Positions 42,277 through 57,460 of a DNA stretch of 64,000 bases are shown piece by piece. A model generated the notes under the pieces. It worked only from the letters and a program-made list of their open reading frames with translations. It had not been told where the DNA came from and searched no databases. This DNA comes from Sneathiella sp. HT1-7 (GTDB lineage Bacteria; Pseudomonadota; Alphaproteobacteria; Sneathiellales; Sneathiellaceae). Position 1 is the stretch's first letter, and each line of letters starts with the position of its first letter. Location of the stretch: NCBI RefSeq assembly GCF_020731145.1, contig NZ_JAJFZN010000003.1, positions 62,001 to 126,000 on the forward strand. The letters are read 5' to 3'. The translations under genes were made by a program, and so were the position numbers.

Positions 42277-43338
42277 ATGAAGAATGAACAAGACTTTCCC
42301 CCGCAAATGATAAAAACACCGAGCGCGTGGTACGGCCATGAGTTGGCAAAGGATACGAAAGCCTGGATAACACAACTTTCATCGGACGAAGCATTTGAGC
42401 TTGAAAAAGCAGCGGAACGCTTCCAGTCCGATGGTCTGGATCTGGCGAATATATCACCAGAAAATTTTTCACTCCCTCTTCTTGCGCCGAAACTGACGCA
42501 ATTACGCAATGATCTGATGCATGGTATTGGGTTCAGCCTTATGCGCGGTCTGCCGGTGCAGGAATACAGCCAGAAAAAGGCGGCAACAATATTCTGTGGA
42601 ATAGGATCTTATCTCGGGCGTGCTCGATCGCAGAACGCCGCAGGTCATATCCTTGGGCATGTACGTGACGTCGGGAAAGACCCAAAAGATTCCGGAACTA
42701 GAATCTACCAAACAGCACAGCGTCAGACATTTCATACGGATTCCACCGATGTTGTTGGCCTGATGTGCCTGCAAGGGGCGAAGGAGGGGGGGCTCTCCCA
42801 GCTTGTCAGTACCGTCACGATCTATAACGAGATGCAGCGCCAAAGGCCCGATTTGATTGCGGAAATGTTCAAGCCCGTGGCGACAGATCGGCGGGGCGAA
42901 GTGCCGGCGGGTCAGAGGCCCTTTTTTGAAATACCGGTATTGAACTGGCATCAAGGGCTTTTAACAGGGCTGTATCAACGGCAATATGTTAATAGTGCAC
43001 AGCGCTTCCCCGATGCGCCCCGTCTTACCGAGAAGCAGGTGGAGGCGCTCGATTTTTTTGATTCTCTCGCGAATGACCCTACGTTGCATCTCTCCATGCA
43101 GCTGGAGCCGGGCGACATTCAGTTCGTGTATAATCATTCCTTGCTACATGATCGGACAGCGTTTGTTGACTGGTTAGAGACAAATAAGAAGCGTCACTTG
43201 CTGAGGTTATGGTTGTCTCTGCCCGGTGACCGTCCGCTGCCGGATTGTTTTCGTCAGCGTTATGGTACGATTGAAATCGGTAATCGCGGTGGCATCATCG
43301 TTGAGGGAACGAGGCTCAATGTTCCTCTGGACGCGTGA
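42277..43338 (+). CDS. TauD/TfdA-like Fe(II)/2-oxoglutarate dioxygenase
   Basis: An oxygenase of 353 residues. The metal triad is seen as FHTDS (His and Asp) and a distal His in NHSLLHDRTAF, and RHLLRLWLS supplies the 2-oxoglutarate-binding Arg. It is close to the subfamily that acts on amino-acid-like substrates, including clavaminate-synthase-like proteins. RBS AGAGGAGG sits before the ATG at 42277, and an upstream in-frame start at 42259 is rejected. The Lrp neighbour suggests an amino-acid-derived substrate. Confidence 0.85.
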   Translation: MKNEQDFPPQMIKTPSAWYGHELAKDTKAWITQLSSDEAFELEKAAERFQSDGLDLANISPENFSLPLLAPKLTQLRNDLMHGIGFSLMRGLPVQEYSQKKAATIFCGIGSYLGRARSQNAAGHILGHVRDVGKDPKDSGTRIYQTAQRQTFHTDSTDVVGLMCLQGAKEGGLSQLVSTVTIYNEMQRQRPDLIAEMFKPVATDRRGEVPAGQRPFFEIPVLNWHQGLLTGLYQRQYVNSAQRFPDAPRLTEKQVEALDFFDSLANDPTLHLSMQLEPGDIQFVYNHSLLHDRTAFVDWLETNKKRHLLRLWLSLPGDRPLPDCFRQRYGTIEIGNRGGIIVEGTRLNVPLDA

Positions 43339-43375
43339 ATTTAGACTGACAAATTAATCATGTTTCATCCAACGA

Positions 43376-43420
43376 AACTTTGCTTCTTTAGGTAAAATAC
43401 TGAAAAAGCGAAGTTTTTTT
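43376..43420 (+). terminator. Rho-independent terminator after the oxygenase gene
   Basis: AACTTTGCTT (43376-43385) and AAGCGAAGTT (43406-43415) pair over 10 bp with one T-G pair, and a run of seven T residues ends at 43420. A second 7-bp stem (43434-43440 with 43450-43456) follows without a T run. Confidence 0.75.
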
Positions 43421-43517
43421 ATCTTACCGAAACCCGCAGAATTCTAACGTCTGCGGAGCCTTCTGCTTGTCTGAACGGGCGCAATTTTCAAACTAATTTT
43501 ATAAAACATCTTGTATT

Positions 43518-43537
43518 GATATTGATAATCATTATTA
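43518..43537. promoter_or_regulatory. Fur box upstream of the TonB receptor
   Basis: GATATTGATAATCATTATT (43518-43536) matches the classic 19-bp Fur box at 17 of 19 positions. The TGATAAT-C-ATTATTA core (43523-43537) matches the 7-1-7 form at 14 of 15. It lies about 80 bp before the receptor start, so the operon should be repressed by iron. Confidence 0.8.
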
Positions 43538-43617
43538 ACTATCGCCAGTTAATGCTAATGATTCTTAATAGCAGTTATAGTCGTTAGCGAAATAAACAAG
43601 AAAACGGAGTGCATGAA

Positions 43618-45996
43618 ATGCCTAGGTCTGCTCGCTTGGTTGCCCTTACAACTTGCTGTTACTTTGCTTTGACAACAGCTCTTTACGCACAATCTTCAAA
43701 TTCGAAACCGGACATGCCTGTGGCGCAAACAACTTCGAAAACGGACGCCGATCAAGGCGAGACCAAAGTAGAAAATAACGAGAATAAGGCAGATGAGACA
43801 ACGTCTACACAATCGAATCCAAGTATGACATCGCTCCCGCCGGTGACAGTCACAGCGGATCGCAAACAGAAAACCCTATTGGAAACTCCCGGTAATGTGT
43901 CAACAGTGACGCGCGAAGACCTCGACCGGCGCATGGATAACGTGATTGAAGAGGTGTTCAAGTACGAGCCAGGGATTGAGGTGCCCAAGCAAAGCACCAG
44001 CACCGATCCTTTCTCCAGTTCGGGCGGTATCCGCATACGTGGGGTTGGCGGTAACCGGACACAGGTTCTAGTGGACGGAAACCGGACGATTGAACGGATT
44101 ACGGATTCAACCCGCGACATCGTGGAATCCTCCAACGTTAAGGCCGTGGAGATCATTCGCGGACCTTCTTCGGTCCTTTGGGGAAGTGACGCGCTTGGCG
44201 GGACGGTCAATTTTGTCACGAAGGATCCTTCTGACTATCTGACTGGTGGGAAGGCGGTCGGTGGTTCTGCTGATTTCAGCTATGGCACACTGGATGAGGC
44301 CTTTACCGAGTCTGTCACTGGTGCCGCGCGGTTCAGCCGCAAGTTTGAGGCTTTGTTGAGCTATACACGTCGGGACGGACGGGAGACAGATCTTGGGAAT
44401 GCAGAGGTCGGTCCTTATGCTATTCAGGAATGCCCGAGAAATCCAGAGGCAACGCCCTGTAATGAATATGACCCGACCATCAGCCAGTCGAACAACCTGC
44501 TTTCCAAGCTAGTCTGGCATCCGTCCGACACCAACCAGTTCCGTCTGACGGGCGAGTATTTCAACCGAGACACTTCCGTTGACCAGAATTCAGTGCTCGG
44601 CCCGGACGGCACCTCGGATATTCACGCATATGATCATGAGCAGAAGATCAAGCGCTATCGCCTGTCCGTTGATCAGGACTGGCTTATTGAAGATCTGAAC
44701 TGGCTTGATCGTATAAAGTGGCAGGTGACCTACTCCCCACAAAAGGTTGATCGTTTCAGTGAGCGTTACCGCACGGTCATTGCGAGTGGTGATGAGGAGG
44801 TTCGGGAGATCAGTCAGTATTATGACGAGACTTTCTATGAAGGTGATTTCCAACTGGAATCCTCCTTTAACTGGGGCGAGAGCCTGCACACCCTGACCTA
44901 TGGGTTGGACGGGGATGTAACGACGACAGATTATAACCGCGAGGACATCACCCATAACATTACAACAGACACGACAACGGTGACGCGGGCGGGGGGCTTC
45001 AACTTCGCCGATGCAACAACGACCCGCCTGGATGCCTATGTCCAGGACGAGATGTCCTTCAATAACGGTCGGCTCAAGATAACGCCGGGGGTACGCTTCA
45101 CTAATTACTCCATCAATCCAAAGACGGATGGCGACTATCAACTTGTGCCAGGGGCGGAGCCGAAGAAGGTCACGGCGTCGGATCTGCAGTTCAAGTTGGG
45201 CACAATTTACGAACTGACAGATGTCTATTCCGTTTATGGGCAATATGCGCAAGGCTTTAAGATGCCTACAGCACAACAACTCTATCAATCTCTTGACAGC
45301 TTGCCATTCTTTGCGCTGGTGCCGAACCCTGATCTTGAACCTGAGTCGGTCGATAGTTATGAGCTGGGCTTCCGGGGTGACTTTGGAAACAAGGGGTATT
45401 TCTCAATCAACGGCTTCGTCGCGAAGTACAAGAACTTTATCGAAAACTTCGTCGATGCAGATCCTGCGGATTACGGCCTGCCTCCTGGAACAATGACCCT
45501 TACATATGACAATGCAGACTCGCTTCTTATGTATGGCATCGAGGCAACCGCGGCCATGCAACTTCCTGGCAACTTCTCGACAAGAGTGGCGCTGTCCTAT
45601 CAGAAGGGCAAGATCAAGGACAATGGCATTGAGGAAACTTATAATGGTGCTTTGCCGCTCCAAGTTGTGACGGGTTTACGTTATGTGCATCCGAAGCTTG
45701 GTTTCGATGTAGAACTGGTCGGAACATTTCAGGCCGGTTCCGCCGATGTGGCCGATCCTGCGACAGAATTTTCACCGGGCGGATATGCGGTGTTCGATGT
45801 CCTTGCGGGTTGGCAGGCGGCAGAAAATCTCACGCTCAGGGCGGGCTTAACCAACATCTTCGATACGCGCTACTTTGGACCGGAAACACGTGGCTTTCCA
45901 ATCAATGGTACGGATGCGGTTAAGAGGGGTAACCCGATTGAGCTGCAAACTGCACCGGGGCGTAGCCTCAAGGTCGGTCTCAGCTACGCTTTCTGA
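43618..45996 (+). CDS. TonB-dependent receptor, haem/haemoprotein type
   Basis: An outer-membrane receptor of 792 residues. A signal peptide ends near TALYAQ. A low-complexity Thr/Asn/Glu linker follows, then the TonB box LPPVTVTADRK and a plug with RIRGVGGNRTQVLVDG. The barrel ends RSLKVGLSYAF with the terminal Phe. FKMPTAQQLY and VPNPDLEPE resemble the FRAP and NPNL boxes of haem receptors. The ATG at 43618 is preferred over the GTG at 43609, whose first base overlaps the GGAG. It is preceded by a Fur box and followed by an ABC protein and a ChaN-like protein, which supports haem or ferric-complex uptake. Confidence 0.9.
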   Translation: MPRSARLVALTTCCYFALTTALYAQSSNSKPDMPVAQTTSKTDADQGETKVENNENKADETTSTQSNPSMTSLPPVTVTADRKQKTLLETPGNVSTVTREDLDRRMDNVIEEVFKYEPGIEVPKQSTSTDPFSSSGGIRIRGVGGNRTQVLVDGNRTIERITDSTRDIVESSNVKAVEIIRGPSSVLWGSDALGGTVNFVTKDPSDYLTGGKAVGGSADFSYGTLDEAFTESVTGAARFSRKFEALLSYTRRDGRETDLGNAEVGPYAIQECPRNPEATPCNEYDPTISQSNNLLSKLVWHPSDTNQFRLTGEYFNRDTSVDQNSVLGPDGTSDIHAYDHEQKIKRYRLSVDQDWLIEDLNWLDRIKWQVTYSPQKVDRFSERYRTVIASGDEEVREISQYYDETFYEGDFQLESSFNWGESLHTLTYGLDGDVTTTDYNREDITHNITTDTTTVTRAGGFNFADATTTRLDAYVQDEMSFNNGRLKITPGVRFTNYSINPKTDGDYQLVPGAEPKKVTASDLQFKLGTIYELTDVYSVYGQYAQGFKMPTAQQLYQSLDSLPFFALVPNPDLEPESVDSYELGFRGDFGNKGYFSINGFVAKYKNFIENFVDADPADYGLPPGTMTLTYDNADSLLMYGIEATAAMQLPGNFSTRVALSYQKGKIKDNGIEETYNGALPLQVVTGLRYVHPKLGFDVELVGTFQAGSADVADPATEFSPGGYAVFDVLAGWQAAENLTLRAGLTNIFDTRYFGPETRGFPINGTDAVKRGNPIELQTAPGRSLKVGLSYAF

Positions 45997-46077
45997 CAGC
46001 GGCGACCTCCAACCCTTTTTCTTTAACCTAAAACTATCGAACGGGGCGCCTGTTAGTCCCGTTTGGAAAGTGAACGA

Positions 46078-47802
46078 ATGACAGAACTCGCGCGACAACT
46101 CTGGATGATCCTGCGCATAAGCTTCTTTAACCTAGCAAACAGCCGCAATGTATTTTTGTACATTGTGGTTTTGCTTTTTGAGTTGGGCAGCATACCGGTT
46201 TCCGTTCGCCTTATCCAATGGACGGCCGATTTCTATGGCGCGCTGGAACGCTTTGACGGGTCGGAAGCAGCACGTCAGGTTGGTATCTACGCTCTGCTAA
46301 TTTCGGCTTACGCGGCACTCGCGCTTGCTGGAGGGTATCTTCGCAAGTTTCTCATCATGCGCTGGCGGCAGGATCTGACCGGCGCCGTCCTCAACGACTG
46401 GCTCTCGGACAAGATTTACTGGCGTCTCCAGAATGGCTACGGGGTCGAGAAAATCGACAATCCAGATCAGCGTATTGCCGACGACTGCCGCCTGTTCGTT
46501 GAAGAGTTTGTCGACGAAACGCTTGATCTCATTACATCGGTGACGGGGCTGTTCACCTACATCGCCGTGCTCTGGTCGCTTTCGAATTTTCCATTGGAAT
46601 TCACGCTGTTCGACTGGGACGTGTCAATCCCTCGCTACATGGTCTGGGCGGCGTTCCTTTATGTTCTCCTCTCCAGCGGATTAACTCATTGGCTGGGCTA
46701 CCCGTTGAAGAAACTGACGTTTAATCAACAGAGAAAAGAAGCAGATTTTCGCTTCGATTTGGTACGGTTGCGAGAAAATGCGGACCCCATCGCCGTCTCC
46801 GGCTTTGAGGGGGCGGAGCGGCGTCGACTGGATGAAAAGTTCGCCGCTATCGTTGCCAACTGGCGGCGGCTGATACTGCGGGAATTTTATCTTGGATGTT
46901 TCAAGATCCCGTATTTCCGCACCATCTTGCGCATACCGCTCCTGCTGGCGTTGCCGGCCTATTTTGCTGGGCATGTCAATTTTGGTGGATTGATGCAGCT
47001 CGCCTCCGCCTTTCAAAGTGTGGTCACGACGTTATCGTGGTTTATTTTTGCCTATAACCGTCTTGCGGCACTTGCGGCGACGATAACCCGGCTTGGTGAT
47101 CTGCTGGACGCGATCGAGCGATGCAAAAATGCGCCAGAGAGCGAAATTTCGGTGACGAAACATCCGGGCGGTGACATTCATGTCAAGAAATTAACCCTTG
47201 AAAGCCCGGTCGGAAAATCTTTGCAAATTCCGTCCGAGTGGGACCTGAAGTCCGGGGAGCATGTCTGGATTTCCGGCCCTTCCGGTCTCGGCAAGAGCAC
47301 TTTCCTAAAGGCGCTTGCAAATATCTGGCCCTATGGTCATGGCGAGATCCAAATTCCGGATGGAAAGTCGTGTGCCTTTATTCCTCAGCGGAGCACGATC
47401 AACGGAACAAGTCTTGCCGAAAGCGCTGTTTATCCCCTGGAAGAGGGGAGCATCAGTCTTGATGAGGCGTCGGATTACCTGGAGGCCGTTGGTTTGCCGG
47501 ATCAGGCTCGGGCGTTGCAGGCGGGATTAAAGCCGGATATTTCGGGCCTCTCCGGAGGAGAGCTGCAACGCCTGGCACTTGTGCGGCTATTGATTGAAAA
47601 GCCGGACTGGGTGTTCATGGACGAGGCCAGCAGCGCTATTGACAGTGATAGCGAAGCAGAAATTTTCGCCCGGCTGCGGGCGCGGTTACCGAACACGACC
47701 TTTATTCTTGTGGCGCATCGTCCGCCCGACGGCTTTGGCGAATTGCGTTATATTCCGCTCTCCCCAAACCCGGGAATTCCTATATTCGATCTCACTAAGT
47801 AA
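46078..47802 (+). CDS. ABC transporter of the SbmA/BacA-YddA type (membrane domain plus ATPase)
   Basis: A half-transporter of 574 residues. An N-terminal membrane domain (about 1-330) opens with NSRNVFLYIVVLLFELGSI. The ATPase domain has GPSGLGKSTF, FIPQRS, LSGGELQRLALVRLL and WVFMDEASSAID. This family (YddA/Rv1819c-like) can import bulky hydrophilic compounds although it has an exporter fold. It follows the TonB receptor by 81 bp, so it may be the inner-membrane step for the same ligand. The ATG at 46078 is used; a TTG at 46063 is possible. Confidence 0.85.
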   Translation: MTELARQLWMILRISFFNLANSRNVFLYIVVLLFELGSIPVSVRLIQWTADFYGALERFDGSEAARQVGIYALLISAYAALALAGGYLRKFLIMRWRQDLTGAVLNDWLSDKIYWRLQNGYGVEKIDNPDQRIADDCRLFVEEFVDETLDLITSVTGLFTYIAVLWSLSNFPLEFTLFDWDVSIPRYMVWAAFLYVLLSSGLTHWLGYPLKKLTFNQQRKEADFRFDLVRLRENADPIAVSGFEGAERRRLDEKFAAIVANWRRLILREFYLGCFKIPYFRTILRIPLLLALPAYFAGHVNFGGLMQLASAFQSVVTTLSWFIFAYNRLAALAATITRLGDLLDAIERCKNAPESEISVTKHPGGDIHVKKLTLESPVGKSLQIPSEWDLKSGEHVWISGPSGLGKSTFLKALANIWPYGHGEIQIPDGKSCAFIPQRSTINGTSLAESAVYPLEEGSISLDEASDYLEAVGLPDQARALQAGLKPDISGLSGGELQRLALVRLLIEKPDWVFMDEASSAIDSDSEAEIFARLRARLPNTTFILVAHRPPDGFGELRYIPLSPNPGIPIFDLTK

Positions 47803-47818
47803 AAGGAAGTTATTCTAA

Positions 47819-48688
47819 ATGACAGCAAGTTACCCACATCCCGTTTCAAGCTGGCTTGATCCAGATACCGGCGCCTTGATTCCGCATGCTGCGTTAATCT
47901 CAGAACTTGCGCAAAATCGCGTTGTCTTGCTGGGGGAGACCCATGATCAGTACGACATCCATCGCTGGCAGCTTTATGTGACGGCCGCACTTCATGCCTA
48001 TAACTCGAATATCGTAGTCGGTTTCGAGATGTTTCCAAGAAGCGCCCAACCTATTTTGGACAAATGGACGGCGGGCGATTTGTCGGAGGAGGCGTTTCTG
48101 GAAAAGGTCGACTGGAAAAAAGTCTGGGGCTTTCCGCCGGAGCTTTACTTGCCGATCTTCCGCTTTTGTCGGGAAGTCGGAGTTCGGATGATCGCGCTTA
48201 ATTGCTATCGCGCGCTGGTGACCCGCGTCGGCAAGGAGGGGTGGGAGGCCGTCGCTGAGGAGGATCGTGACGGTCTGACACCCGCAAAGCCCGCTACCGA
48301 AGCCTATCGCGACTATCTCTTCTCGCTCGTTTCTGGCCCGGACGGTATTTTTCTAACAAAGTCAGAGGAAGCCGAAGCGCGCAAAGATCGTTTTACCCGT
48401 GCGCAGCAGACATGGGATCGCGCTTTTGCCTGTAATATCGCCGCGACGCAAACGGGTGATAATCCACCGCTCGTCATCGGGATCATTGGGCGTGGGCATT
48501 TGGAATTTGGGCATGGGACGCCATATCAATTGGAAGATCTCGGCATCGACAAGGTCTCAGTCCTTCTCCCATCTAAAGGAGAATCCGGGAAAAGAGAGCA
48601 GCAGCCCGGTATTGCCCGCGCTTGTTTTTGCCTGCCAAATGTTCACGAGAGAGGAGACATGGATTGCTGTGAGGCGGAGCCTGAATAA
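47819..48688 (+). CDS. ChaN-like haem-binding protein, no signal peptide
   Basis: A protein of 289 residues of the ChaN/DUF399 family, which binds haem between two subunits. Visible motifs are VVLLGETHDQYDIHRWQL, GFEMFPRSAQPILDKW and GRGHLEFGHGTPYQLEDLG, which are well conserved in the family. ChaN proteins are usually lipoproteins, but this one starts MTASYPHPV with no leader. The C-terminus adds CFC and CC pairs (about 274-286) that could bind metal. Lying after a TonB receptor and ABC protein under a Fur box, it may receive or sense haem in the cytoplasm. Confidence 0.82.
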   Translation: MTASYPHPVSSWLDPDTGALIPHAALISELAQNRVVLLGETHDQYDIHRWQLYVTAALHAYNSNIVVGFEMFPRSAQPILDKWTAGDLSEEAFLEKVDWKKVWGFPPELYLPIFRFCREVGVRMIALNCYRALVTRVGKEGWEAVAEEDRDGLTPAKPATEAYRDYLFSLVSGPDGIFLTKSEEAEARKDRFTRAQQTWDRAFACNIAATQTGDNPPLVIGIIGRGHLEFGHGTPYQLEDLGIDKVSVLLPSKGESGKREQQPGIARACFCLPNVHERGDMDCCEAEPE

Positions 48689-48748
48689 GCGAAAACAGGA
48701 AACCCATCGCGCTGTATAAACGGAGTTTTCCGTTCAATGACACTGACA

Positions 48749-48788
48749 TAGCATGGCCTTGTAATTATTTTGCGTTAAGGCCATGCTA
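48749..48788. terminator. Long perfect hairpin at the end of the haem operon
   Basis: TAGCATGGCCTT (48749-48760) and AAGGCCATGCTA (48777-48788) pair perfectly over 12 bp around a 16-nt loop. A smaller AACGGA/TCCGTT stem lies just upstream (48719-48734). The T run is poor. It probably insulates the haem operon from the next one. Confidence 0.55.
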
Positions 48789-48815
48789 ATTGATAATATG
48801 ATATTCTTTCTGAAA

Positions 48816-48844
48816 TTGACGTAATGATCGTATTTAATTAGATT
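48816..48844 (+). promoter_or_regulatory. Promoter of the envelope operon
   Basis: TTGACG (48816-48821) and TAGATT (48839-48844) are spaced by 17 bp. They lie 37 bp before the first gene, in an AT-rich stretch. Confidence 0.5.
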
Positions 48845-48881
48845 TTTATAATAATATTTATGTTGGAAGCTTGATTTTTGA

Positions 48882-49490
48882 ATGAGTAAATTCACTCTGT
48901 TTTTAGTCATTTTTATGTTGGCAATTCTGTTGACTGATATCGATACTGCGGTTGCACAGGCAACAGAGACTGGAACAGACGCGCAAGAATGCAAGGAATA
49001 TGGCGTCGATTACCAGCAGACGGAAGGTCTGACAAAAGAAGAAATTACAGACCGGATGGACAGGGCTCTGTTCGAGTCGCTCAATAAATATGACGATTGC
49101 CTACAACAATCTCAGTCTGGCGGTGCGGCTTCCGCTAACGGAGCCAGCGGTTCCCAAGGTATCAATGGTGCCAATGGAAATGCGGTTGGTACGGAGGCTT
49201 CCTCCTCAACGGCGTCTGCCGGTATTCAGGGGACGGAGAAAACCGACACAACGGATAAATCCAGTTCGCCCACGACGGCAGCTGACGCCGCTGAAAATAA
49301 ACAGGCACAAGCGCAAACGCAGGATAAGGTGCTGCCAAATGGTAAGCTGCCCGATGATATTCCGTCGTCTGACAACGACACTGTGCTACAACAAAAGGTG
49401 AAAGAGGCGGCGATGAATGAGCCTGACCCCGAAAAACGTGCCAAGTTGTGGAATGAATATCGTAAGCTTAAGGGCTTATCGCAAATTTAA
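48882..49490 (+). CDS. Secreted low-complexity protein, first gene of the envelope operon
   Basis: I do not recognise a family. It has 202 residues. A signal peptide (about 1-25) ends at TAVAQ. The mature part has two Cys in the first third (ECKEYG and YDDCLQQ) that could form a disulphide. A Ser/Gly/Ala/Thr/Asn-rich disordered middle (about 75-145) follows. The charged C-terminal helix (VLQQKVKEAAMNEPDPEKRAKLW in pattern) may bind a partner. The gap to the lipoprotein gene is 27 bp. It is probably a periplasmic accessory of the motor-like complex encoded after it. Confidence 0.7.
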   Translation: MSKFTLFLVIFMLAILLTDIDTAVAQATETGTDAQECKEYGVDYQQTEGLTKEEITDRMDRALFESLNKYDDCLQQSQSGGAASANGASGSQGINGANGNAVGTEASSSTASAGIQGTEKTDTTDKSSSPTTAADAAENKQAQAQTQDKVLPNGKLPDDIPSSDNDTVLQQKVKEAAMNEPDPEKRAKLWNEYRKLKGLSQI

Positions 49491-49517
49491 GGTTGAAAGC
49501 AAAGTGAGAGAGATAGG

Positions 49518-50747
49518 ATGAACGTTCAGCGTTTTGTCGGCTGGTTGATCTGTAGCTGCTTTTTGTTGACGAGCTGTGTCACGCCCGGAATGTCGTCGCG
49601 CGTTGGTCCCCGGGTTTCTAGCGAAGTCATGACTGCGGCAAAAATTGACCCTTCTTCGCCGAAACCCAAGCTTGATGTCATCATTCCGGTGTTCGATCCG
49701 GGCATCCCGGAGGATGACGCTGCTCTCGAAGATGATGAAGAAGTCTGGCCGGAGTTGCGGCGCGCAGAGGCCGTACGCTTTGCCTTGATATTAAAAGAAA
49801 AAATTGAAGCAACTGGAAAATTTGGTGCCGTTCGCGTGACGCCGAATGCTGAGGCGACGGGAGACTTATATGTCATTGGTAAGATCATAGAATCCAACGG
49901 ATTGGACGTGGAAATCGGTGTCGACGTTTTTGATATCTCAGGTGCAAAATGGTATGATGAAGAATATGAGCATGAAGTGCCGGAGAAATTCTTTATGTCC
50001 ATACGAAATAAAGGGAAAGACCCATATGACCCTGTCTTCGTGGAAGCCGCGCAAGACCTAGTCGAGCATTTGGATGATGCGGATGATACCGAACTTGCCT
50101 TGCTGAAACCTGTGACAGAAATGCGTTTTGGAGCGAATTTTTCTGAGGAATCCTTCTCTGAGTATATCAAAGATGACGGCGGAGAGATTGAATTGACCGG
50201 CCTGCCAAGTGAGGATGATCCAATGTTACGCCGGATCAGGGCGATTTGGGTCCGAGATCAACTGTATGTGGATAATCTTCAACAGCACTATGAGGCGTTC
50301 AATGCCAAGATGGCCCCGAGTTATACCGTCTGGCAGAAACAGAGCCAGGAAGCCCAGATCGCGTTGAACGAGGCAAGAGTGAAGCAGACGACGCAAATCG
50401 TCGGGGGTGTTCTTTTGGCGATTTTGGGGGTTGGTCTCGCGGCTGCAAGTTCAAACAGTGGAAATGCCGCCCGGTCCGCAGGAGCATTTGCCGGGGCTGC
50501 GGCCGCCGGTGTTGGATCGGTTATTCTCTTCTCAGAAGGATTTAAAACGGGCAATGAGACAAAATTTCATGCGAGTACTCTTGAAGAGCTAGGCGAGTCT
50601 GTGGATTCTGAATTGGCACCACAGGTTGTTGAGTTCGAGGGTGAGACAAAAAAACTTACGGGTAATGCTGCGAAACAGTTTGCGGAATGGAGAAGTTTTC
50701 TGAAACAAGTATATGAACAGGAAAAAACACCAGAAAAACAGCTTTAA
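49518..50747 (+). CDS. Outer-membrane-type lipoprotein with glycine-rich hydrophobic hairpin
   Basis: A lipoprotein of 409 residues of no family I can name. The lipobox LLTSC places the modified Cys at position 20; the next residues VTPG do not signal inner-membrane retention. A mixed alpha/beta domain follows (KLDVIIPVFDPG onward), with a long acidic stretch PEDDAALEDDEEVWPE. Residues of about 293-345 are Gly/Ala-rich and hydrophobic (VGGVLLAILGVGLAAA, then AGAFAGAAAAGVGSVIL), like a glycine-zipper pair. The C-terminal helix is charged. It may be the outer-membrane partner of the inner-membrane complex. Confidence 0.75.
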   Translation: MNVQRFVGWLICSCFLLTSCVTPGMSSRVGPRVSSEVMTAAKIDPSSPKPKLDVIIPVFDPGIPEDDAALEDDEEVWPELRRAEAVRFALILKEKIEATGKFGAVRVTPNAEATGDLYVIGKIIESNGLDVEIGVDVFDISGAKWYDEEYEHEVPEKFFMSIRNKGKDPYDPVFVEAAQDLVEHLDDADDTELALLKPVTEMRFGANFSEESFSEYIKDDGGEIELTGLPSEDDPMLRRIRAIWVRDQLYVDNLQQHYEAFNAKMAPSYTVWQKQSQEAQIALNEARVKQTTQIVGGVLLAILGVGLAAASSNSGNAARSAGAFAGAAAAGVGSVILFSEGFKTGNETKFHASTLEELGESVDSELAPQVVEFEGETKKLTGNAAKQFAEWRSFLKQVYEQEKTPEKQL

Positions 50748-50756
50748 GTAACGACA

Positions 50757-52223
50757 ATGTTTGAAAAAAAACTAGAAGAAGCTGCCCGGAAATCCCGGCA
50801 ACAATTGTTTGTGTTGTTACTGTTGGTCGCTATCCTGATTTTGGGGGGTGCCGTTGCTTTTCTTATAACGCAGCTCTCGTTACAACAAACTTCAAATGTA
50901 TCCGGGATTGAGGCCGAAAAGAAAAATATAGAGATCTCTCCGAAGATATCACCAGTTCAGCAGTCAAAACCCGCCGATGAAAAGATAAAGCAAAATCGTA
51001 CCACCGAGGAGGTGGTCGGAGCGCTGCGCCGGTATGAAGAAGAGTTTGAAGGTATTATCCAATCGGGCGGGTTCGGTAAATGGAACGGCAGCTTGCAGCA
51101 TGATCTGATCACGCGAAAAGACAAAGTCATCACGGATCTCGCGAATGGCGAAACGGATCGAGCATTCGAAGAAGTAAATAATCTAATCGCAGATGCCTCC
51201 ACCGCAGTAAGTGAGTATGAGATTGTCTTTGAAGAAGCGATGGCAAATGCGATACGCGCCTATGAGGCTGAGGATGTGACGCGGGCAACAATTGAAGTGG
51301 AACGAGCGCTTGAGCTCAAACCGGATGACGCCGTTGCTCTGGAGTTGCAAGAAAAAATTAAAAAGCTTCCGCAATTATTTGAATTAATGGAAAAAGCGCG
51401 CGTCGCGAATATAGAGAATAATCTGGAAGAGGAACGAAATTTATCCGTTGAAATTATACGGCTTGATCCGACACGCGTACTGTATCAAGAGCGGATAGAG
51501 GAGATTGATGTTTTGCTGCGTGAAGCACGATTTGAAAAGATCGTTACTTCAGGCCTGATCGCGAGCAAAAAAGAACAGCTTGGGAATCTCCAAAGTGCAT
51601 ATGATCAGGCAAATGCTCTTTTCCCGTCGCGAGAGGAAACGAAGAACCTTGCATCCCTTTTAAAAGAGCTAAAACGCGAGTTGCGCTTTCGCACCTTCGT
51701 AAAGGAGGGAGACACCGCAATTCAACAAGACAATTGGCGAGATGCTCTTGCTTCCTACCAGAATGCGTCGGCACTATATCCGGACAAAATAGAAGTCCAG
51801 GAGGCTATTTCTCTATCGCAGAAAATATTGCGTATGAGTGGGGAAGTTCAGGGGTTTCTTAAAAATGCATCACGATTATCGGTGGATAATATACGGCAGG
51901 CCGCAGAACAGGCAATTGCTGATGCGGAAATCTATAGTGCGATGAGCCCGGCTCTTGCGAATGATGTTGAACGGTTGCAGACGGAAATTATCCAACGAAA
52001 CAAGGAAATTGAAGTCTGGGTCCTTTCCGATAAATTGACAAATGTAACTGTGCGGGGCGTCGGCAAGGTCGGTATGGTGGAGCGATATAAAATACGTTTG
52101 AAGCCGGGGCAATATACGTTCGAAGGGCGCCGTGAAGGGTTCAGGACGAAATCGGTCCAGATCACGATTTCTCCGGAAGATAGTCAGCTTGAGGTGACAG
52201 TCAAAAGCGATGAGCGAATTTAA
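50757..52223 (+). CDS. Membrane-anchored coiled-coil/repeat protein with C-terminal PEGA-like domain
   Basis: A protein of 488 residues with one N-terminal membrane helix (about 18-40) after a short basic stretch, so the rest is periplasmic. The long helical region (about 85-400) has TPR-like segments such as GDTAIQQDNWRDALASYQNA. The C-terminal about 65 residues (VRGVGKVGMVERYKIRLKPG onward) look like a PEGA beta-domain. Its last 14 bases overlap the next gene. The same helix-then-PEGA plan in the next protein suggests the two interact. Confidence 0.78.
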   Translation: MFEKKLEEAARKSRQQLFVLLLLVAILILGGAVAFLITQLSLQQTSNVSGIEAEKKNIEISPKISPVQQSKPADEKIKQNRTTEEVVGALRRYEEEFEGIIQSGGFGKWNGSLQHDLITRKDKVITDLANGETDRAFEEVNNLIADASTAVSEYEIVFEEAMANAIRAYEAEDVTRATIEVERALELKPDDAVALELQEKIKKLPQLFELMEKARVANIENNLEEERNLSVEIIRLDPTRVLYQERIEEIDVLLREARFEKIVTSGLIASKKEQLGNLQSAYDQANALFPSREETKNLASLLKELKRELRFRTFVKEGDTAIQQDNWRDALASYQNASALYPDKIEVQEAISLSQKILRMSGEVQGFLKNASRLSVDNIRQAAEQAIADAEIYSAMSPALANDVERLQTEIIQRNKEIEVWVLSDKLTNVTVRGVGKVGMVERYKIRLKPGQYTFEGRREGFRTKSVQITISPEDSQLEVTVKSDERI

Positions 52224-54216
52224 ACAACAAATCGAGAATGCCGCTCGCCGTCAACGGCTCCTGCTTCTGGGCTTTGGTGGTTTCGGTCTCGGCTTTATGT
52301 TGGTGGTAGCCGTCGGCTTTCTGCTGATGAAGGTAACACCGGTTAAGGTATCTCCGGTTCCTGCCGCAACAGAGGCAGTTGTTACTGTCGAGAAAGGAGC
52401 TGCGATTTATTTCCAAGGGTCGCTTTTTTCACTCTCTCGCTATCCTGTCATCTCTGCGGCGGCAAAGGGATATGTAACGGCCGAGCGAGAAATTGGCCCC
52501 TCTGAGGAGGGAGCGGCTGTTGAAGTTGTCCTCCGGGAACTCCCTGCTAAATTGACGGTGAAGGTCGCAGCGCCGGAAGAGGCGTTGAACTGGCGTATCA
52601 ATGGGAAAACCTATCCATCGACATCACAGTTGGAGGCGGAACTTGACGCAGGGCACTACGTTGTGCGCGCAGAGCATCCCTACTTTCAGCCGGTGGAGCG
52701 GGAATACGATCTGGAGCGGGGGGAAAGCTATTCAGATGAACTTTCTCTCGAAAGAGCTGTCGGCACCATACGTCTGAATGTCACGCCTTCTGATGCCAAT
52801 GTGATATTCAACGGACAATCCGTCAGCGAAGTTCCTGCGGAAATCAGCATAGAAGCAGGGCAATATGAGATTGAGGTAACAAAAGACGGATTTGCGCCGA
52901 TACAGGATGTCATTAATCTGACCTTCCAGCAGAATGAGATCGAGCGACACTACCGGTTACAAAAAAAGCCTGCCTATGTAACTGTTTCCACCACTCCGAA
53001 AGGCGGACGCCTTACATTAAACGGCAAGTCGGTCTCGGCGGGGAAAGAATTGCAACTCTCGGCCAATAAAAAATACTATTTGAGATATGAAAAAGACGGC
53101 TATGGCTCGAAGGAAGAGGAAATTAATCTCAAGCCGGATGAGCATCTGGATGTGACGTTTGATATGGCGCTTAAAATTGGCGAAATCCATATCACGTCCA
53201 CGCCCCCCGCATCAATTCTCATTGATGGCAAGCCAGCAGGAAACACGCCGCTTATCGTTAGGCTTCCGGCAACTGCGCATGATTTCACTCTTCAACGGCC
53301 GGGCTATGTGAGCGTCAATAAAGTTATAAAACTTGATCAGAAAGCGGTTCGTAAACTGGATGTTACGCTCAAAACAGAACGCGCGGCAACGATAGACACG
53401 GCCAAACCGGTTTATAAAAACAGTTTGGGTATGGAAATGCGATTGTTTGAACCGACAGAGGTTCAATTGGGCGCACCACGTCATGAGAAAGGACAGCGGG
53501 CAAACGAATTTCTTCGCCCCGTCAATCTGACGCGGCATTTCTATGTAGCTACGACAGAAACGACAGAGGGGCAGTACAGTCAGTTCCAGGGTAAGCGTAA
53601 AAGGGGAGATAATTTTCCGGTTACGAATATTTCATGGGAGGAAGCTGCCCGGTTTTGCAATTGGCTGAGCAAGATTGAAGGCCTGCCAATGTTTTACAAA
53701 TTTGATGGGGTCAATTATCGGGGATTTGATGCGCAGTCAACTGGCTATAGATTGCTGAGCGAGGCGGAATGGGAATGGCTTGCCCGAAAAGCCAAGCGGA
53801 ACAAACAGACAGTTTTCCCTTGGGGAGACGATGCCGTCATCCCAAAAGGAGCCGGAAATATTGCCGACGAAACGGCAAACGGCAAAACTCCGTTTTTTGT
53901 TCCCGGCTATATTGACGGGTTTGCGAACGCGGCTCCGGCTGGTAGCTTCGTTAAGGACAAAGCCGGGCTCCACGATTTATTTGGCAATGTGTCTGAATGG
54001 GTTCATGATTTCTATACCCTTGTGCCGCCCGCCTCAGGTGAGGTTCTGGCAGATCCGTTAGGGGCTCAGGCGGGAGATAAGCATATGTTTAAAGGGGCGA
54101 GCTGGGCATCTGGGACGCTGACGGAAATCAGACCTGCCTACCGGGCATCCTCGGGTCAGGGAACGGACAAAATTGGCTTCAGGGTCGCTCGCTACGTCTA
54201 TGGAGATGCAAAATGA
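52210..54216 (+). CDS. Membrane-anchored PEGA-repeat protein with C-terminal SUMF1/FGE-fold domain
   Basis: A protein of 668 residues. It has an N-terminal membrane helix (about 19-41), then about four PEGA-type beta repeats (about 110-400, e.g. GTIRLNVTPSDANVIFNG and GEIHITSTPPASILIDGKP). A formylglycine-generating-enzyme-like domain follows (about 402-665: FYVATTETTEGQYSQF, RLLSEAEWEWLARKA, DLFGNVSEWVHDF). The Cys pair used by true FGEs is absent: the region reads FKGASWASGTLTEIRP. It is therefore more likely a binding or structural domain than an enzyme. It overlaps its upstream neighbour by 14 bp and the tiny secreted-peptide gene by 4 bp. Confidence 0.85.
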   Translation: MSEFKQQIENAARRQRLLLLGFGGFGLGFMLVVAVGFLLMKVTPVKVSPVPAATEAVVTVEKGAAIYFQGSLFSLSRYPVISAAAKGYVTAEREIGPSEEGAAVEVVLRELPAKLTVKVAAPEEALNWRINGKTYPSTSQLEAELDAGHYVVRAEHPYFQPVEREYDLERGESYSDELSLERAVGTIRLNVTPSDANVIFNGQSVSEVPAEISIEAGQYEIEVTKDGFAPIQDVINLTFQQNEIERHYRLQKKPAYVTVSTTPKGGRLTLNGKSVSAGKELQLSANKKYYLRYEKDGYGSKEEEINLKPDEHLDVTFDMALKIGEIHITSTPPASILIDGKPAGNTPLIVRLPATAHDFTLQRPGYVSVNKVIKLDQKAVRKLDVTLKTERAATIDTAKPVYKNSLGMEMRLFEPTEVQLGAPRHEKGQRANEFLRPVNLTRHFYVATTETTEGQYSQFQGKRKRGDNFPVTNISWEEAARFCNWLSKIEGLPMFYKFDGVNYRGFDAQSTGYRLLSEAEWEWLARKAKRNKQTVFPWGDDAVIPKGAGNIADETANGKTPFFVPGYIDGFANAAPAGSFVKDKAGLHDLFGNVSEWVHDFYTLVPPASGEVLADPLGAQAGDKHMFKGASWASGTLTEIRPAYRASSGQGTDKIGFRVARYVYGDAK

Positions 54217-54353
54217 GATGGTTAAATAGCAGAAAGATCATTGTTGCCGTTGTTGCGCTGACGGGCGGAGTGGTCCTGTTGCAATATGCCTATGCGCAAA
54301 GTAGCGCGTCGATATCGCTTAATACTCCTGTTGCTTTCCCTGTGGATATCTAG
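54213..54353 (+). CDS. 46-residue secreted peptide
   Basis: A short ORF begins ATGAGATGG, overlapping the previous stop, and ends TAG directly before the next ATG. The product has 46 residues: a basic start (MRWLNSRK), a hydrophobic core (IIVAVVALTGGVVLLQ) and a clear AYA-Q cleavage site. The mature peptide would be only about 18 residues, QSSASISLNTPVAFPVDI. It fills the gap exactly and keeps the operon coupled, which supports a real gene. The function is unknown. An alternative is that this is the remnant of a longer secreted protein. Confidence 0.65.
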   Translation: MRWLNSRKIIVAVVALTGGVVLLQYAYAQSSASISLNTPVAFPVDI

Positions 54354-55127
54354 ATGAAGAACTTTATTCTCGCAACGGCTCTCTTGCTGCTCTGTGCTTT
54401 CGGCGTTTGGGTCGTTTATGAAGTCATCGTCATTCCGGAAGCCGCTCGCCTGGTTGCGGAAGCAAGACAAAACGGCAGCGCCGCCCCACAGGTCTTTGTG
54501 GTGATCATCAAGGACTGGGAGCAGCAGATATGTATCACGCTCGCTTTATGGTGCTTGCTGCTGCTCAGCATTAAATACTGGGATATTTTCAGTGACAATC
54601 ATTTCTACGACATTGATTTTCTGGGTACGATGATTGAAGCGGCTGATGGCGAAGAGGAGAAGCTGACTTTACGTAAAACCATGACGGAAATCGATGAGTT
54701 GCCGGAGAAAATAACCACCACTCCGGTTATCCAAACCCTGATTGCCAGTATCCGCCGTTATCTTATGACCGAGGATGTTCATAGCACCTCTGAAGCGATC
54801 TCGCTTAGTATCGATGCGCTGGCCCTCCGGCAGGATGCTGGTAACACGATGATCCGCTACGTTATCTGGGCGATCCCGTCATTCGGTTTTATCGGCACGG
54901 TCAGAGGGATTGGCGCGGCGTTGACCCAGGCGGATGAGGCATTGAAGGGAGACATTACCCTTATGACAGACAGCCTTGGCGTTGCCTTCAACTCCACCTT
55001 GGTGGCACTCTGCTTGTCCATTCCCTTAATGCTGTTGCTACATGGACTGCAGCGGTTTCAGGATGGGCAGTTGATCAAGACTCAGGAATATTGCGAAAAA
55101 TTTCTGCTAAACCGCGTCAGCAAATAG
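54354..55127 (+). CDS. MotA/TolQ/ExbB-family proton channel protein
   Basis: An inner-membrane protein of 257 residues with four predicted helices (about 3-26, 57-76, 167-190 and 205-230) and a cytoplasmic loop (about 80-165). This plan is like MotA more than three-helix TolQ. The channel motif IPSFGFIGTVRGIGAAL keeps the conserved Thr (182) in GTV. The last helix NSTLVALCLSIPLMLL has Thr215 in the position of the second channel Thr. In this family five copies surround two ExbD/MotB-type partners. Here the only candidates are the two VWA proteins encoded next. Confidence 0.88.
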   Translation: MKNFILATALLLLCAFGVWVVYEVIVIPEAARLVAEARQNGSAAPQVFVVIIKDWEQQICITLALWCLLLLSIKYWDIFSDNHFYDIDFLGTMIEAADGEEEKLTLRKTMTEIDELPEKITTTPVIQTLIASIRRYLMTEDVHSTSEAISLSIDALALRQDAGNTMIRYVIWAIPSFGFIGTVRGIGAALTQADEALKGDITLMTDSLGVAFNSTLVALCLSIPLMLLLHGLQRFQDGQLIKTQEYCEKFLLNRVSK

Positions 55128-55134
55128 GTATCCC

Positions 55135-56205
55135 TTGCGCAAACGTCGTGAAACAGAAGGGGTCAGTCTTTCGTTCCTTGACATCATGTCATGTGGGTTG
55201 GGTGCGGCCGTTCTTATCCTGATATTGCTGAAACTTCAGCCGGATCAATCGGCCGTTGATGTGGACGCCCTCAAGAAAGAACTGGAAGTCCGGCATGAAA
55301 AGGCGGAGGAACTGCAGGTCACACTGGAACAGGACCAGCTTGAACTGGAAGCGCTCAATTCCAGGCTGGCAAGCCTTGCTGGGAAGAAGGATGCGCTGAC
55401 GGAGGCAATCAATAATTCCACCAGCCGGATGGAGGAAAAGGTTGCCGAGATAAAAAGCGTTACTGAAAGCATAGTCAAAAAGCCGCCGTTGCAAAAAGCT
55501 GACCCCGTACAATCCGATCAGGGCGGGGAGGAAGAATATCTGCTCGGCCTCAAAGTGGAAGGAAAGCGGATTGCCTTTCTGATTGATACAAGCGCGTCAA
55601 TGACTGACGAAAAGCTTGTAGATATCATCGGCCGGAAAGTGGCCTCCGATGCAGAGAAAAAGCAGGGTCCGAAATGGCGGCGGACAATCAGAACAGTCAA
55701 ATGGCTCGCCAATCGAATTCCGAAAAAGTCGCAGGCAAAGTTCGTTGGATTTAATGAGAAGGTCTTTGCTATCGGACCAAGTAGTTGGTTCTCTGGATCA
55801 GACGCCGCAGCGATCGAAAGTGTTTTTCAGCGAATGGAAAATGTGGTCCCGGAGGGAGCCACTAATCTGGAGGCGGTCCTTGAATCTGTTAATGGGTTTA
55901 GTGATGCGCCGACCGACTATTATCTTGTGACAGACGGTCTGCCAACCGCAGGCACCTCCAATTTTGTGTCGCTAAATCCGTTTTCCAATTGCAATTCTCT
56001 TTTTGGAAAATCGGCCACGATTTCCGGAGATTGCCGACTTAAGCTATTCCAGTACACCATCAGGAAGCATGGTATTCATAAAGGACGGCCTGTCAATGTC
56101 GTCCTCCTGCCACTCGAAGGGGATCCAAAGGCTGCGCCGGCATTTTGGAGCTGGACCTTCTCGACAAACGGCCTGATGATCAGCCCGGCGGAGAGCTGGC
56201 CATGA
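55135..56205 (+). CDS. ExbD/MotB-like anchored protein with von Willebrand A domain (first)
   Basis: A protein of 356 residues. The basic start RKRRETEG is followed by SFLDIMSCGLGAAVLILILL, a membrane helix with Asp16 just before it, the place of the proton-carrying Asp in ExbD, TolR and MotB. A coiled coil spans about 42-115. The VWA domain (about 145-340) has an intact metal site: DTSAS (151-155), Thr243 in GATNLEAV and Asp267 in VTDGLPT. The start is TTG with TAGGT 5 nt upstream; the next in-frame ATG would remove the helix. The end overlaps the second VWA gene by ATGA. Confidence 0.85.
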   Translation: MRKRRETEGVSLSFLDIMSCGLGAAVLILILLKLQPDQSAVDVDALKKELEVRHEKAEELQVTLEQDQLELEALNSRLASLAGKKDALTEAINNSTSRMEEKVAEIKSVTESIVKKPPLQKADPVQSDQGGEEEYLLGLKVEGKRIAFLIDTSASMTDEKLVDIIGRKVASDAEKKQGPKWRRTIRTVKWLANRIPKKSQAKFVGFNEKVFAIGPSSWFSGSDAAAIESVFQRMENVVPEGATNLEAVLESVNGFSDAPTDYYLVTDGLPTAGTSNFVSLNPFSNCNSLFGKSATISGDCRLKLFQYTIRKHGIHKGRPVNVVLLPLEGDPKAAPAFWSWTFSTNGLMISPAESWP

Positions 56206-57152
56206 GACGGCGCAGTCGGACATTGGAGATATTCAGTATTTCCTTTTTGGACCTTGTATCCTGCGGGTTTGGCGCGGTTGTTCTTTTGATCCTGATCTCT
56301 AAACCGGGGGAGGGGGAGTTCTCTGGCGGGATTGACGAAGCGCGGGATCTGATGGGACAGATTACACGGGCAGAACGTCTTATCAGCGACCTGGAAGATC
56401 AAACGTCCATGGTGGAGGGGCAACTAAGCGCGAGCAAAAACCTGGCCGGAGAGATGGAAAATACAATCGAGGATTTGGATCAGCAAAAATCCTCCGCCGA
56501 GCAGGCCGAAGCCAAGGCGCTGGATGACCTCGAAGGATTGCAGCTGGTTGAGGAGTCACTTAACCGTGCCTCTATTCGTCCGAACACAGTACCGGAAAAG
56601 CGCGACGATGAGGTCGGCGGCATTCCTGTCGATAGTGACTATGTCCTTTTCATTGTTGATACCTCCGGCAGTATGCAGAGGATATGGGGACAAGTGTCCC
56701 GCCTGATGCAAAAAGTGCTCTCCATTCACCCAAAGGTTAAAGGCTTTCAGATCTTGAATGATAACGGCATTCACCTGATTTCCTCCTATAACGGGAAATG
56801 GATTCCCGATACCCCTAGTCGGCGCAAGGGTATTTTCAAGGCCTTTGCCAACTGGCGCAGCAACTCCAACAGCAGCCCGGTTGAAGGGCTTGAAGTTGCC
56901 TTGAAAACATATGCCAAGCCGGGAGTGAGTCTCTCCATTTATATTTTGGGAGATGATTATACGGGTTCGTCATATGATGCGGTGATTAACCGCCTGGAAA
57001 GTTTAAATACAAACCGGATCACCGGTAAGCCACTCGCCCGTATACACGCCATTGGCATTATTTCCAGAGGGGCAACGGATCGCTTCGGTATCTTGATGCG
57101 GGAAGTAACCCGCAGAAGTAACGGCACGTTTCTGGCCCTTCCTCAGCAATGA
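56202..57152 (+). CDS. ExbD/MotB-like anchored protein with von Willebrand A domain (second)
   Basis: A protein of 316 residues with the same plan. It starts MRRRSRTLEIFS, then FLDLVSCGFGAVVLLILIS with Asp17 before the helix. A coiled coil spans about 45-115. The VWA domain (about 146-314) has DTSGS (153-157), Ser in NSNSSPVEG and Asp in ILGDDYTG. The start ATG lies in the ATGA overlap; an in-frame start at 56145 is rejected as it lies in the upstream gene. The two VWA chains could form the heterodimer at the centre of a 5:2 channel. Confidence 0.85.
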   Translation: MRRRSRTLEIFSISFLDLVSCGFGAVVLLILISKPGEGEFSGGIDEARDLMGQITRAERLISDLEDQTSMVEGQLSASKNLAGEMENTIEDLDQQKSSAEQAEAKALDDLEGLQLVEESLNRASIRPNTVPEKRDDEVGGIPVDSDYVLFIVDTSGSMQRIWGQVSRLMQKVLSIHPKVKGFQILNDNGIHLISSYNGKWIPDTPSRRKGIFKAFANWRSNSNSSPVEGLEVALKTYAKPGVSLSIYILGDDYTGSSYDAVINRLESLNTNRITGKPLARIHAIGIISRGATDRFGILMREVTRRSNGTFLALPQQ

Positions 57153-57460
57153 GGGCGGGATAACAGGTTTTATCCCACACGAACTATTTCCCCAGACTCG
57201 CGATATAGCAGCCATCTGTCGCGGATCTAACGTCTGACCAAATTATTCAGGTCTGCCCGTCCCTCTGTCATTAAATGCTTCATCAATAATAGTGCTGTTT
57301 TGGCACAGATTTTCCCTGGAATGAGCGAGCCCGGAAGTGCGCTGAATTTAAAATATTGTAATATGATATATCAAATGTCATAATTTTGCGTATGACCGGT
57401 TGGGGTGTGGCAAGCCAGGTCAGATGAACAAACGTCACACATGCTCAGGAAGGATGCGAT
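57153..57460. other. Gap between the envelope operon and the amino acid importer
   Basis: This 308-bp stretch holds a weak 7-bp stem (GGGATAA 57157-57163 with TTATCCC 57170-57176) just after the VWA stop, without a T run, and the dyad at 57356. No gene is visible. Confidence 0.5.
57356..57374. promoter_or_regulatory. Candidate GntR operator before the amino acid importer
   Basis: A 19-bp dyad reads TTG-TA-ATAT-G-ATAT-AT-CAA. The TTG/CAA ends and ATAT halves are perfectly symmetric. It lies about 90 bp before the importer start, and the GntR gene is in the same cluster. Confidence 0.45.

Follow-up and report, generated by a model that had tools for sequence, protein, structure and literature searches.

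The window that we analysed is a stretch of 64,000 nucleotides from Sneathiella sp. HT1-7 (contig NZ_JAJFZN010000003.1, positions 62,001 to 126,000), whose genome is 3.83 Mb in size. It contains an operon of eight tightly packed genes on the + strand (window positions 48882-57152), which encodes a channel of the MotA/TolQ/ExbB family, two different proteins with a von Willebrand factor A (VWA) domain and five envelope partners: a secreted protein, a lipoprotein, two membrane-anchored PEGA proteins, one of which carries a SUMF1 domain, and a small peptide. The eight genes are inherited together, and we lean towards reading them as an envelope force transducer that is driven by the proton motive force and whose VWA heads act on the lipoprotein and SUMF1 partners. 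An earlier note on this DNA had proposed a candidate new ion-driven motor. The novelty holds for the five-gene partner set, for which we found no description, but not for the core: a channel with paired pore-helix VWA proteins has already been predicted as a 5:2 motor (PMC12204202). The partners come as a fixed set that seems to be undescribed, down to a very small peptide whose tail is invariant.

The gene layout agrees with the tight eight-gene operon of the earlier note in coordinates and spacing, with intergenic distances from gene 1 to gene 8 of 27, 9, -14, -4, 0, 7 and -4 bp. The anatomy proposed there was also right: the channel is MotA/TolQ-like, the two VWA proteins differ from each other and have a pore-helix aspartate in place of ExbD/TolR/MotB, and the envelope partners are dedicated ones.

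The motor core is encoded by the last three genes. Gene 6 (54354..55127, +, 257 residues) belongs to the MotA/TolQ/ExbB family (Pfam MotA_ExbB, E 4.2e-12), and its pore threonines T182 and T215 are kept in 78/78 relatives. Gene 7 (VWA1; 55135..56205, +, 356 residues) and gene 8 (VWA2; 56202..57152, +, 316 residues) are distinct proteins whose homology spans the N-terminal helix and extends into the VWA domain (hhalign 99.6%). In both, an F-L-D-[ILV] motif stands at the start of the pore helix, and its aspartate is near-invariant (Asp16 of VWA1 in 77/78 relatives, Asp17 of VWA2 in 80/80). A like context surrounds the aspartate in the ExbD/TolR proteins that this genome encodes (TPFVDVM, TPMLDIL and TSLIDVI), which bears out the resemblance to ExbD/TolR that had been noticed at this helix. 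The SHLS motif is absent from the N-termini of VWA1 and VWA2.

The pore helix is followed by a coiled coil and a VWA domain. By Pfam, the VWA domain is matched weakly in gene 7 (0.007) and missed in gene 8. When the sequences were compared to solved structures, VWA1 gave a weak VWA match, and VWA2 and gene 2 gave coiled-coil or chance matches only. The AlphaFold2 model of VWA2 (58 sequences, predicted local distance difference test (pLDDT) 84) begins with a helix (residues 13-33), after which come a coiled-coil segment (43-123) and the VWA domain (144-316). Among known structures, all top rows found with Foldseek and VIA-align are VWA domains, with Z up to 17.4 (2.5 Å, 157-159 residues). Thus, the coiled coil with VWA domain of the earlier note is confirmed in its VWA fold for gene 8. 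Furthermore, the residues of the metal-ion-dependent adhesion site (MIDAS) are retained and near-invariant among relatives in both proteins (D151, S153, S155, T243 and D267 in VWA1; D153, S155, S157 and D251 in VWA2), with a serine (S224/S225) replacing the threonine in the second loop of VWA2. Weak coiled-coil Pfam matches of genes 7 and 8 were judged compositional.

Gene 8 starts at the ATG at 56202; the alternative start of the open reading frame at 56145 is an upstream TTG. VWA1 itself has a TTG start (window 55128-55140), and in Sneathiella an AGGTG that overlaps the stop codon of the channel gene lies ahead of the start. In 23/78 relatives, CTG is the sole plausible start of VWA1, called when there is no ATG, GTG or TTG up to 6 codons upstream or up to 3 codons downstream. 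This conserved near-cognate start is unusual and may limit the dosage of VWA1.

The core resembles a family predicted by AlphaFold3 and of unknown function, in which a pair of TPH-vWA proteins goes with a TolQ-like pentamer and TolR/ExbD is missing (PMC12204202, Mol Biol Evol 2025, msaf138, Fig. 4c,d). In both cases, a proteobacterial TolQ-like channel with a threonine ring lies beside a heterologous, transmembrane-anchored vWA pair, the pore helix has an aspartate without SHLS, and TolR/ExbD genes are missing, as is MotB in our operon. This likeness is one of described features, with the seed Idiomarina loihiensis compared by description only. The text on this second family in the cited paper names no lipoprotein, SUMF1-PEGA protein, TPR-PEGA protein or peptide, and in the open-access literature, with bioRxiv outside the scope, we found no description of the partner set with its peptide. 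The fixed eight-gene unit supplies a partner list for this predicted class of VWA-headed motors.

Other known motors differ more clearly in their parts. TolQRA-TolB-Pal and ExbBD-TonB share with the operon the channel family, the pore threonine and the Asp-bearing axle helix, and gene 2 is TolB-N-like (Z ~9), whereas the operon lacks the ExbD/TolR C-terminal fold, TolA/TonB and Pal. In place of the ExbD/TolR C-terminal or OmpA-like domain of TolQR, ExbBD and MotAB axles, neither of which is found by Pfam, gene 8 has a VWA domain. Zorya ZorAB has a MotA-like channel and an Asp-bearing axle protein as well, but the ZorB peptidoglycan-binding domain and ZorC/ZorD or ZorE are absent from the conserved unit by PADLOC and Pfam, and the PADLOC matches are marginal. 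Across all eight proteins, Pfam, NCBIfam and PADLOC revealed neither an OmpA/peptidoglycan-binding or ExbD domain nor one of a helicase or nuclease, so that the operon is not TolQRA-Pal, ExbBD, MotAB or Zorya, as had been argued before. NCBIfam and PADLOC searches of the operon proteins gave no confident system assignment. Separate MotA/ExbB/TolQ and ExbD/TolR genes are present elsewhere in the genome, and no ExbD/TolR/MotB in the operon; thus, the operon does not replace these sets.

The eight genes form a unit across genomes. When 84,980 species genomes were scanned with VWA2, 80 loci were obtained in Alpha-, Zeta-, Gamma- and Betaproteobacteria and in Desulfobacterota, mostly marine according to the record titles. 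The channel, twin VWA and PEGA-SUMF1 genes, for which the earlier note had suggested a search, recur together, and 55-60 of these loci have the full set of eight genes. The remaining loci are cut by contig ends or contain a peptide that has diverged beyond our first profile yet is readable by eye (one locus, L094, excepted). As the complete sets lie on independent contigs, chance is ruled out. In four loci (L097, L099, L101 and L102), the operon is split into divergent blocks that still adjoin, which argues for one functional unit. In addition, the orthologue distances of seven genes covary (Spearman 0.64-0.85); the peptide, which is too short for this test, reaches 0.23-0.31. Within the genus, the channel is found in 9/25 genomes, and the other eight of these have all eight genes in the same order, except for one contig that starts inside gene 2. 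The operon is also present in relatives from Glaciecola, Alteromonas, Pseudoalteromonas and Bowmanella, and an even draw of Pseudomonadota genomes contains the system in 12/397. Ten genomes were checked for the number of VWA pairs, and each has one, except for Bowmanella with two. Three weak genome matches (G290, G180 and G121), which cover the N-terminal or coiled-coil region only, were left out.

Among the partners, gene 2 (49518..50747, +, 409 residues) encodes a lipoprotein whose lipobox Cys20 is invariant. According to the Lol rule, the residue at +2 governs the sorting of lipoproteins to the outer membrane, and the absence of aspartate from this position (0/64) thus fits outer-membrane sorting. 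In the AlphaFold2 model (51 sequences, pLDDT 81), an alpha/beta domain (residues ~47-196) is followed by a long helix (235-311) and a C-terminal helix. The domain matches FlgT (VIA-align Z 11.6), PelC (11.4), CsgG (~10) and the N-terminal domain of TolB (9.4), which are outer-membrane or ring components; as the Foldseek E-values are modest (best 1.9e-3), we base the fold on VIA-align. The long helix carries a Gly/Ala-rich hydrophobic stretch (residues ~290-345, window 50387-50552) that is poorly modelled, has a conserved hydropathy and might insert in a membrane. A weak Pfam match of gene 2 to SctB2 was judged compositional.

Gene 3 (50757..52223, +, 488 residues) and gene 4 (52210..54216, +, 668 residues) each have one N-terminal transmembrane helix. 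In gene 3, this helix is followed by a helical, TPR-like periplasmic part (weak in Pfam) and a C-terminus in which PEGA is sub-threshold in Pfam but which matches PEGA repeat 1 of gene 4 (hhalign 88.6%, controls 0.1-2.3%; the comparison rests on the gene 3 rows, r4 vs r4, and the controls). Gene 4 contains four PEGA stretches (Pfam 6e-35) and a C-terminal FGE-sulfatase/SUMF1 domain (2e-31). Pfam, hhalign and the lipobox thus support the earlier description of a lipoprotein and two membrane-anchored PEGA proteins, one with SUMF1. None of the 68 gene 4 orthologues has a cysteine in columns 626-662, a G-G/A-S segment that we take to be the position of the catalytic cysteine pair of formylglycine-generating enzyme (FGE). 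Lacking this pair, the SUMF1 domain is a pseudo-enzyme. FGE proteins without the cysteines and with N-terminal extensions, including PEGA, have been noted as a bacterial superfamily around OCTIN, and one member assembles into oligomers in the periplasm (PMC5915273). In NCBIfam, the SUMF1 part of gene 4 matches GldK/PorK best, with 67.7 bits at a cut-off of 350, and the GldK equivalog score is thus not reached.

Gene 5 (54213..54353, +, 46 residues) encodes the peptide. It is kept in complete loci, its ratio of nonsynonymous to synonymous substitution rates (0.25-0.30) indicates purifying selection and its C-terminus is near-invariant; we thus conclude that it is a real gene, as previously proposed. 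The peptide has a length of 38-57 residues, a hydrophobic N-terminus and, in 45/71 sequences, an A-x-A site similar to that of signal peptidase, and it is probably cleaved to about 16-20 residues. It ends, up to the stop codon, in I-S-L-(N/D)-S-P-x-(S/T)-F-P-V-D-I, where P, D and I of the tail are invariant and F is present in 70/71 sequences. Outside this 71-sequence alignment, some Alteromonadales and other members have the tails LPSDI, FPTDI or LPVDI. In the literature, FPVDI occurred as an unrelated acronym only. The FPVDI peptide gene between the SUMF1 and channel genes is a diagnostic signature of the system. The operon is headed, also in the other complete loci, by gene 1 (48882..49490, +, 202 residues), whose secreted product has an N-terminal signal sequence, a low-complexity middle, a conserved Cys region and a conserved C-terminal segment (N165, D166 and Y193).

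Known ion-driven motors of 5:2 stoichiometry drive swimming, gliding, secretion and nutrient uptake, maintain the outer membrane and serve in phage defence. In the operon, gene 6 would form a MotA/TolQ/ExbB-type pentamer, the pore of which would be filled by one helix each of VWA1 and VWA2, giving a heterodimeric axle and presumably the same 5:2 stoichiometry. Asp16 and Asp17 would carry protons, and the ion flow would turn the axle. Through the coiled coils, this rotation would reach the VWA heads, both of them in the periplasm, and the heads may cyclically grip and release periplasmic partners via their MIDAS metal sites. Such gripping would pull on or remodel an assembly that comprises the outer-membrane lipoprotein, the secreted protein and, anchored in the inner membrane, the PEGA-SUMF1 and TPR-PEGA proteins. 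The free C-terminal FPVDI of the putatively cleaved peptide would most likely dock into one part of it, so that the peptide serves in a structural or gating role. The target would presumably be a partner in the outer membrane or wall that is turned or pulled by the VWA heads, as the earlier note had it.

The reading as a force transducer draws on the MotA_ExbB match, the near-invariant motor and MIDAS residues and the confirmed VWA fold, on the co-occurrence of eight genes of which seven evolve in step, and on the lipobox of gene 2 without aspartate at +2 and its domain like TolB-N, PelC, CsgG and FlgT. It is further consistent with the match of the SUMF1 domain to GldK/PorK, the motor partner of GldLM, though far below the cut-off, and with the independent AlphaFold3 prediction of TPH-vWA proteins in TolQ-like pentamers (PMC12204202). 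Several points weigh against it. A common fold such as VWA, TolB-N-like or SUMF1 proves no function, the GldK match of gene 4 is well under the curated cut-off, the transmembrane helix of VWA2 is modelled with low to moderate confidence (pLDDT 44-78 as 10-residue means over residues 1-30), and an outer-membrane or cell-wall target of the motor is something that we only infer. Cultured or enriched hosts in which such motors could be tested are Sneathiella, Magnetovibrio, Mariprofundus, Methylophaga, Glaciecola and Pseudoalteromonas. In a more far-reaching version, which we regard as doubtful, the operon would encode an ion-driven machine of eight obligate parts, one of them a secreted peptide of its own. 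This peptide would be cleaved after A-x-A, and its free, invariant FPVDI tail with Asp next to last would be a dedicated ligand of a VWA MIDAS or of the catalytically dead SUMF1 domain and would clamp or gate the 5:2 motor on a TolB/FlgT-like outer-membrane ring.

The same parts could also form an envelope sensor or signalling relay, in which the lipoprotein and the catalytically dead SUMF1 protein register an event at the outer membrane, with the VWA heads gating the ion flow through the channel. In TagQRST-PpkA of the type VI secretion system, an outer-membrane lipoprotein (TagQ), the SUMF1-like TagR and a membrane-anchored protein with a VWA domain (PpkA) serve as such a sensor. There, TagR is recruited by TagQ and switches on the threonine phosphorylation pathway (PMC6657622). 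The missing cysteines of gene 4 would suit a sensor as well. However, the operon lacks a kinase and an ABC transporter, its VWA proteins bear a motor-type pore helix, and neither within the operon nor beside it is there a recurrent kinase, phosphatase, FHA protein or regulator. Furthermore, channel and axle keep the full set of motor residues, a set that a mere gate would not require, and we consider a sensor unlikely.

Rather improbable, in our estimate, is a machine for the export, assembly or localisation of the operon's own products (the gene 1 protein, the FPVDI peptide or both), comparable to GldLM-driven type IX secretion or Pel and curli, with the peptide C-terminus as the tag and the lipoprotein as an outer-membrane ring. 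Such a machine would account for the same peptide tail in nearly all species of both subfamilies (see below), for the likeness of gene 2 to ring-forming PelC, CsgG and FlgT together with its conserved Gly/Ala-rich stretch, and for GldK as the best match of the SUMF1 domain. Yet no beta-barrel, usher or secretin is present in the operon or recurrent beside it, and the FPVDI tail occurs once per operon, with no genome-wide search made for other cargo. GldLM with GldK/GldN (type IX secretion and gliding in Bacteroidota) likewise combines an ion-driven inner-membrane motor with a SUMF1-fold envelope protein, whereas gene 4 is transmembrane-anchored with PEGA repeats and not a lipoprotein (GldK score 67.7 vs 350), gene 6 belongs to the MotA/TolQ/ExbB family and the axle heads are VWA and not GldM-type domains.

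Anti-phage defence by a Zorya-like ion-driven membrane motor is very improbable, as the patchy presence in the genus, the variable local neighbourhood and a weak ZorB1 match to gene 7 (0.012) stand against the lack of a confident PADLOC family, an effector nuclease/helicase or recurrent defence neighbours, against partners that are purely envelope-directed and against a main subfamily without a cytoplasmic arm.

Around the operon, no ninth conserved neighbour was found in the main subfamily, and the sole widespread flanking cluster is a generic ABC-ATPase family. Carriage by plasmids or viruses was rejected, as there is no relative of VWA2 among 72,556 plasmids or the viral contigs. The region upstream of the amino-acid ABC transporter genes that lie downstream of the operon (window 43300-57350 compared to L177 and L178) varies between close relatives. 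It is absent from one of these (G022), in which only the downstream flank is syntenic (from window 57345), and rearranged in another (G018), in which the operon lies ~12 kb from the same flank; with this variable neighbourhood, a clean empty site was not obtained from either genome.

Lastly, four genomes (L143-L146) have a distant form of the operon in which all eight genes are retained. The peptide of this divergent subfamily has another body and the same kind of end (SFPVDI, SYPVDI, SFPTDI or PFPADI). The subfamily adds a cytoplasmic-looking protein of 440-450 residues without a Pfam match, which lies between the channel and VWA1 in L143 (7395-8750, -) and between the peptide and VWA1 in L145 (10882-12213, +), where the channel comes last. 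L144 and L146 have a gap sized to fit this protein, the sequence of which was not read. Bowmanella (L087, genome G062) has both subfamilies, with one VWA pair each (C1:4267-6266 and C4:128385-130438).

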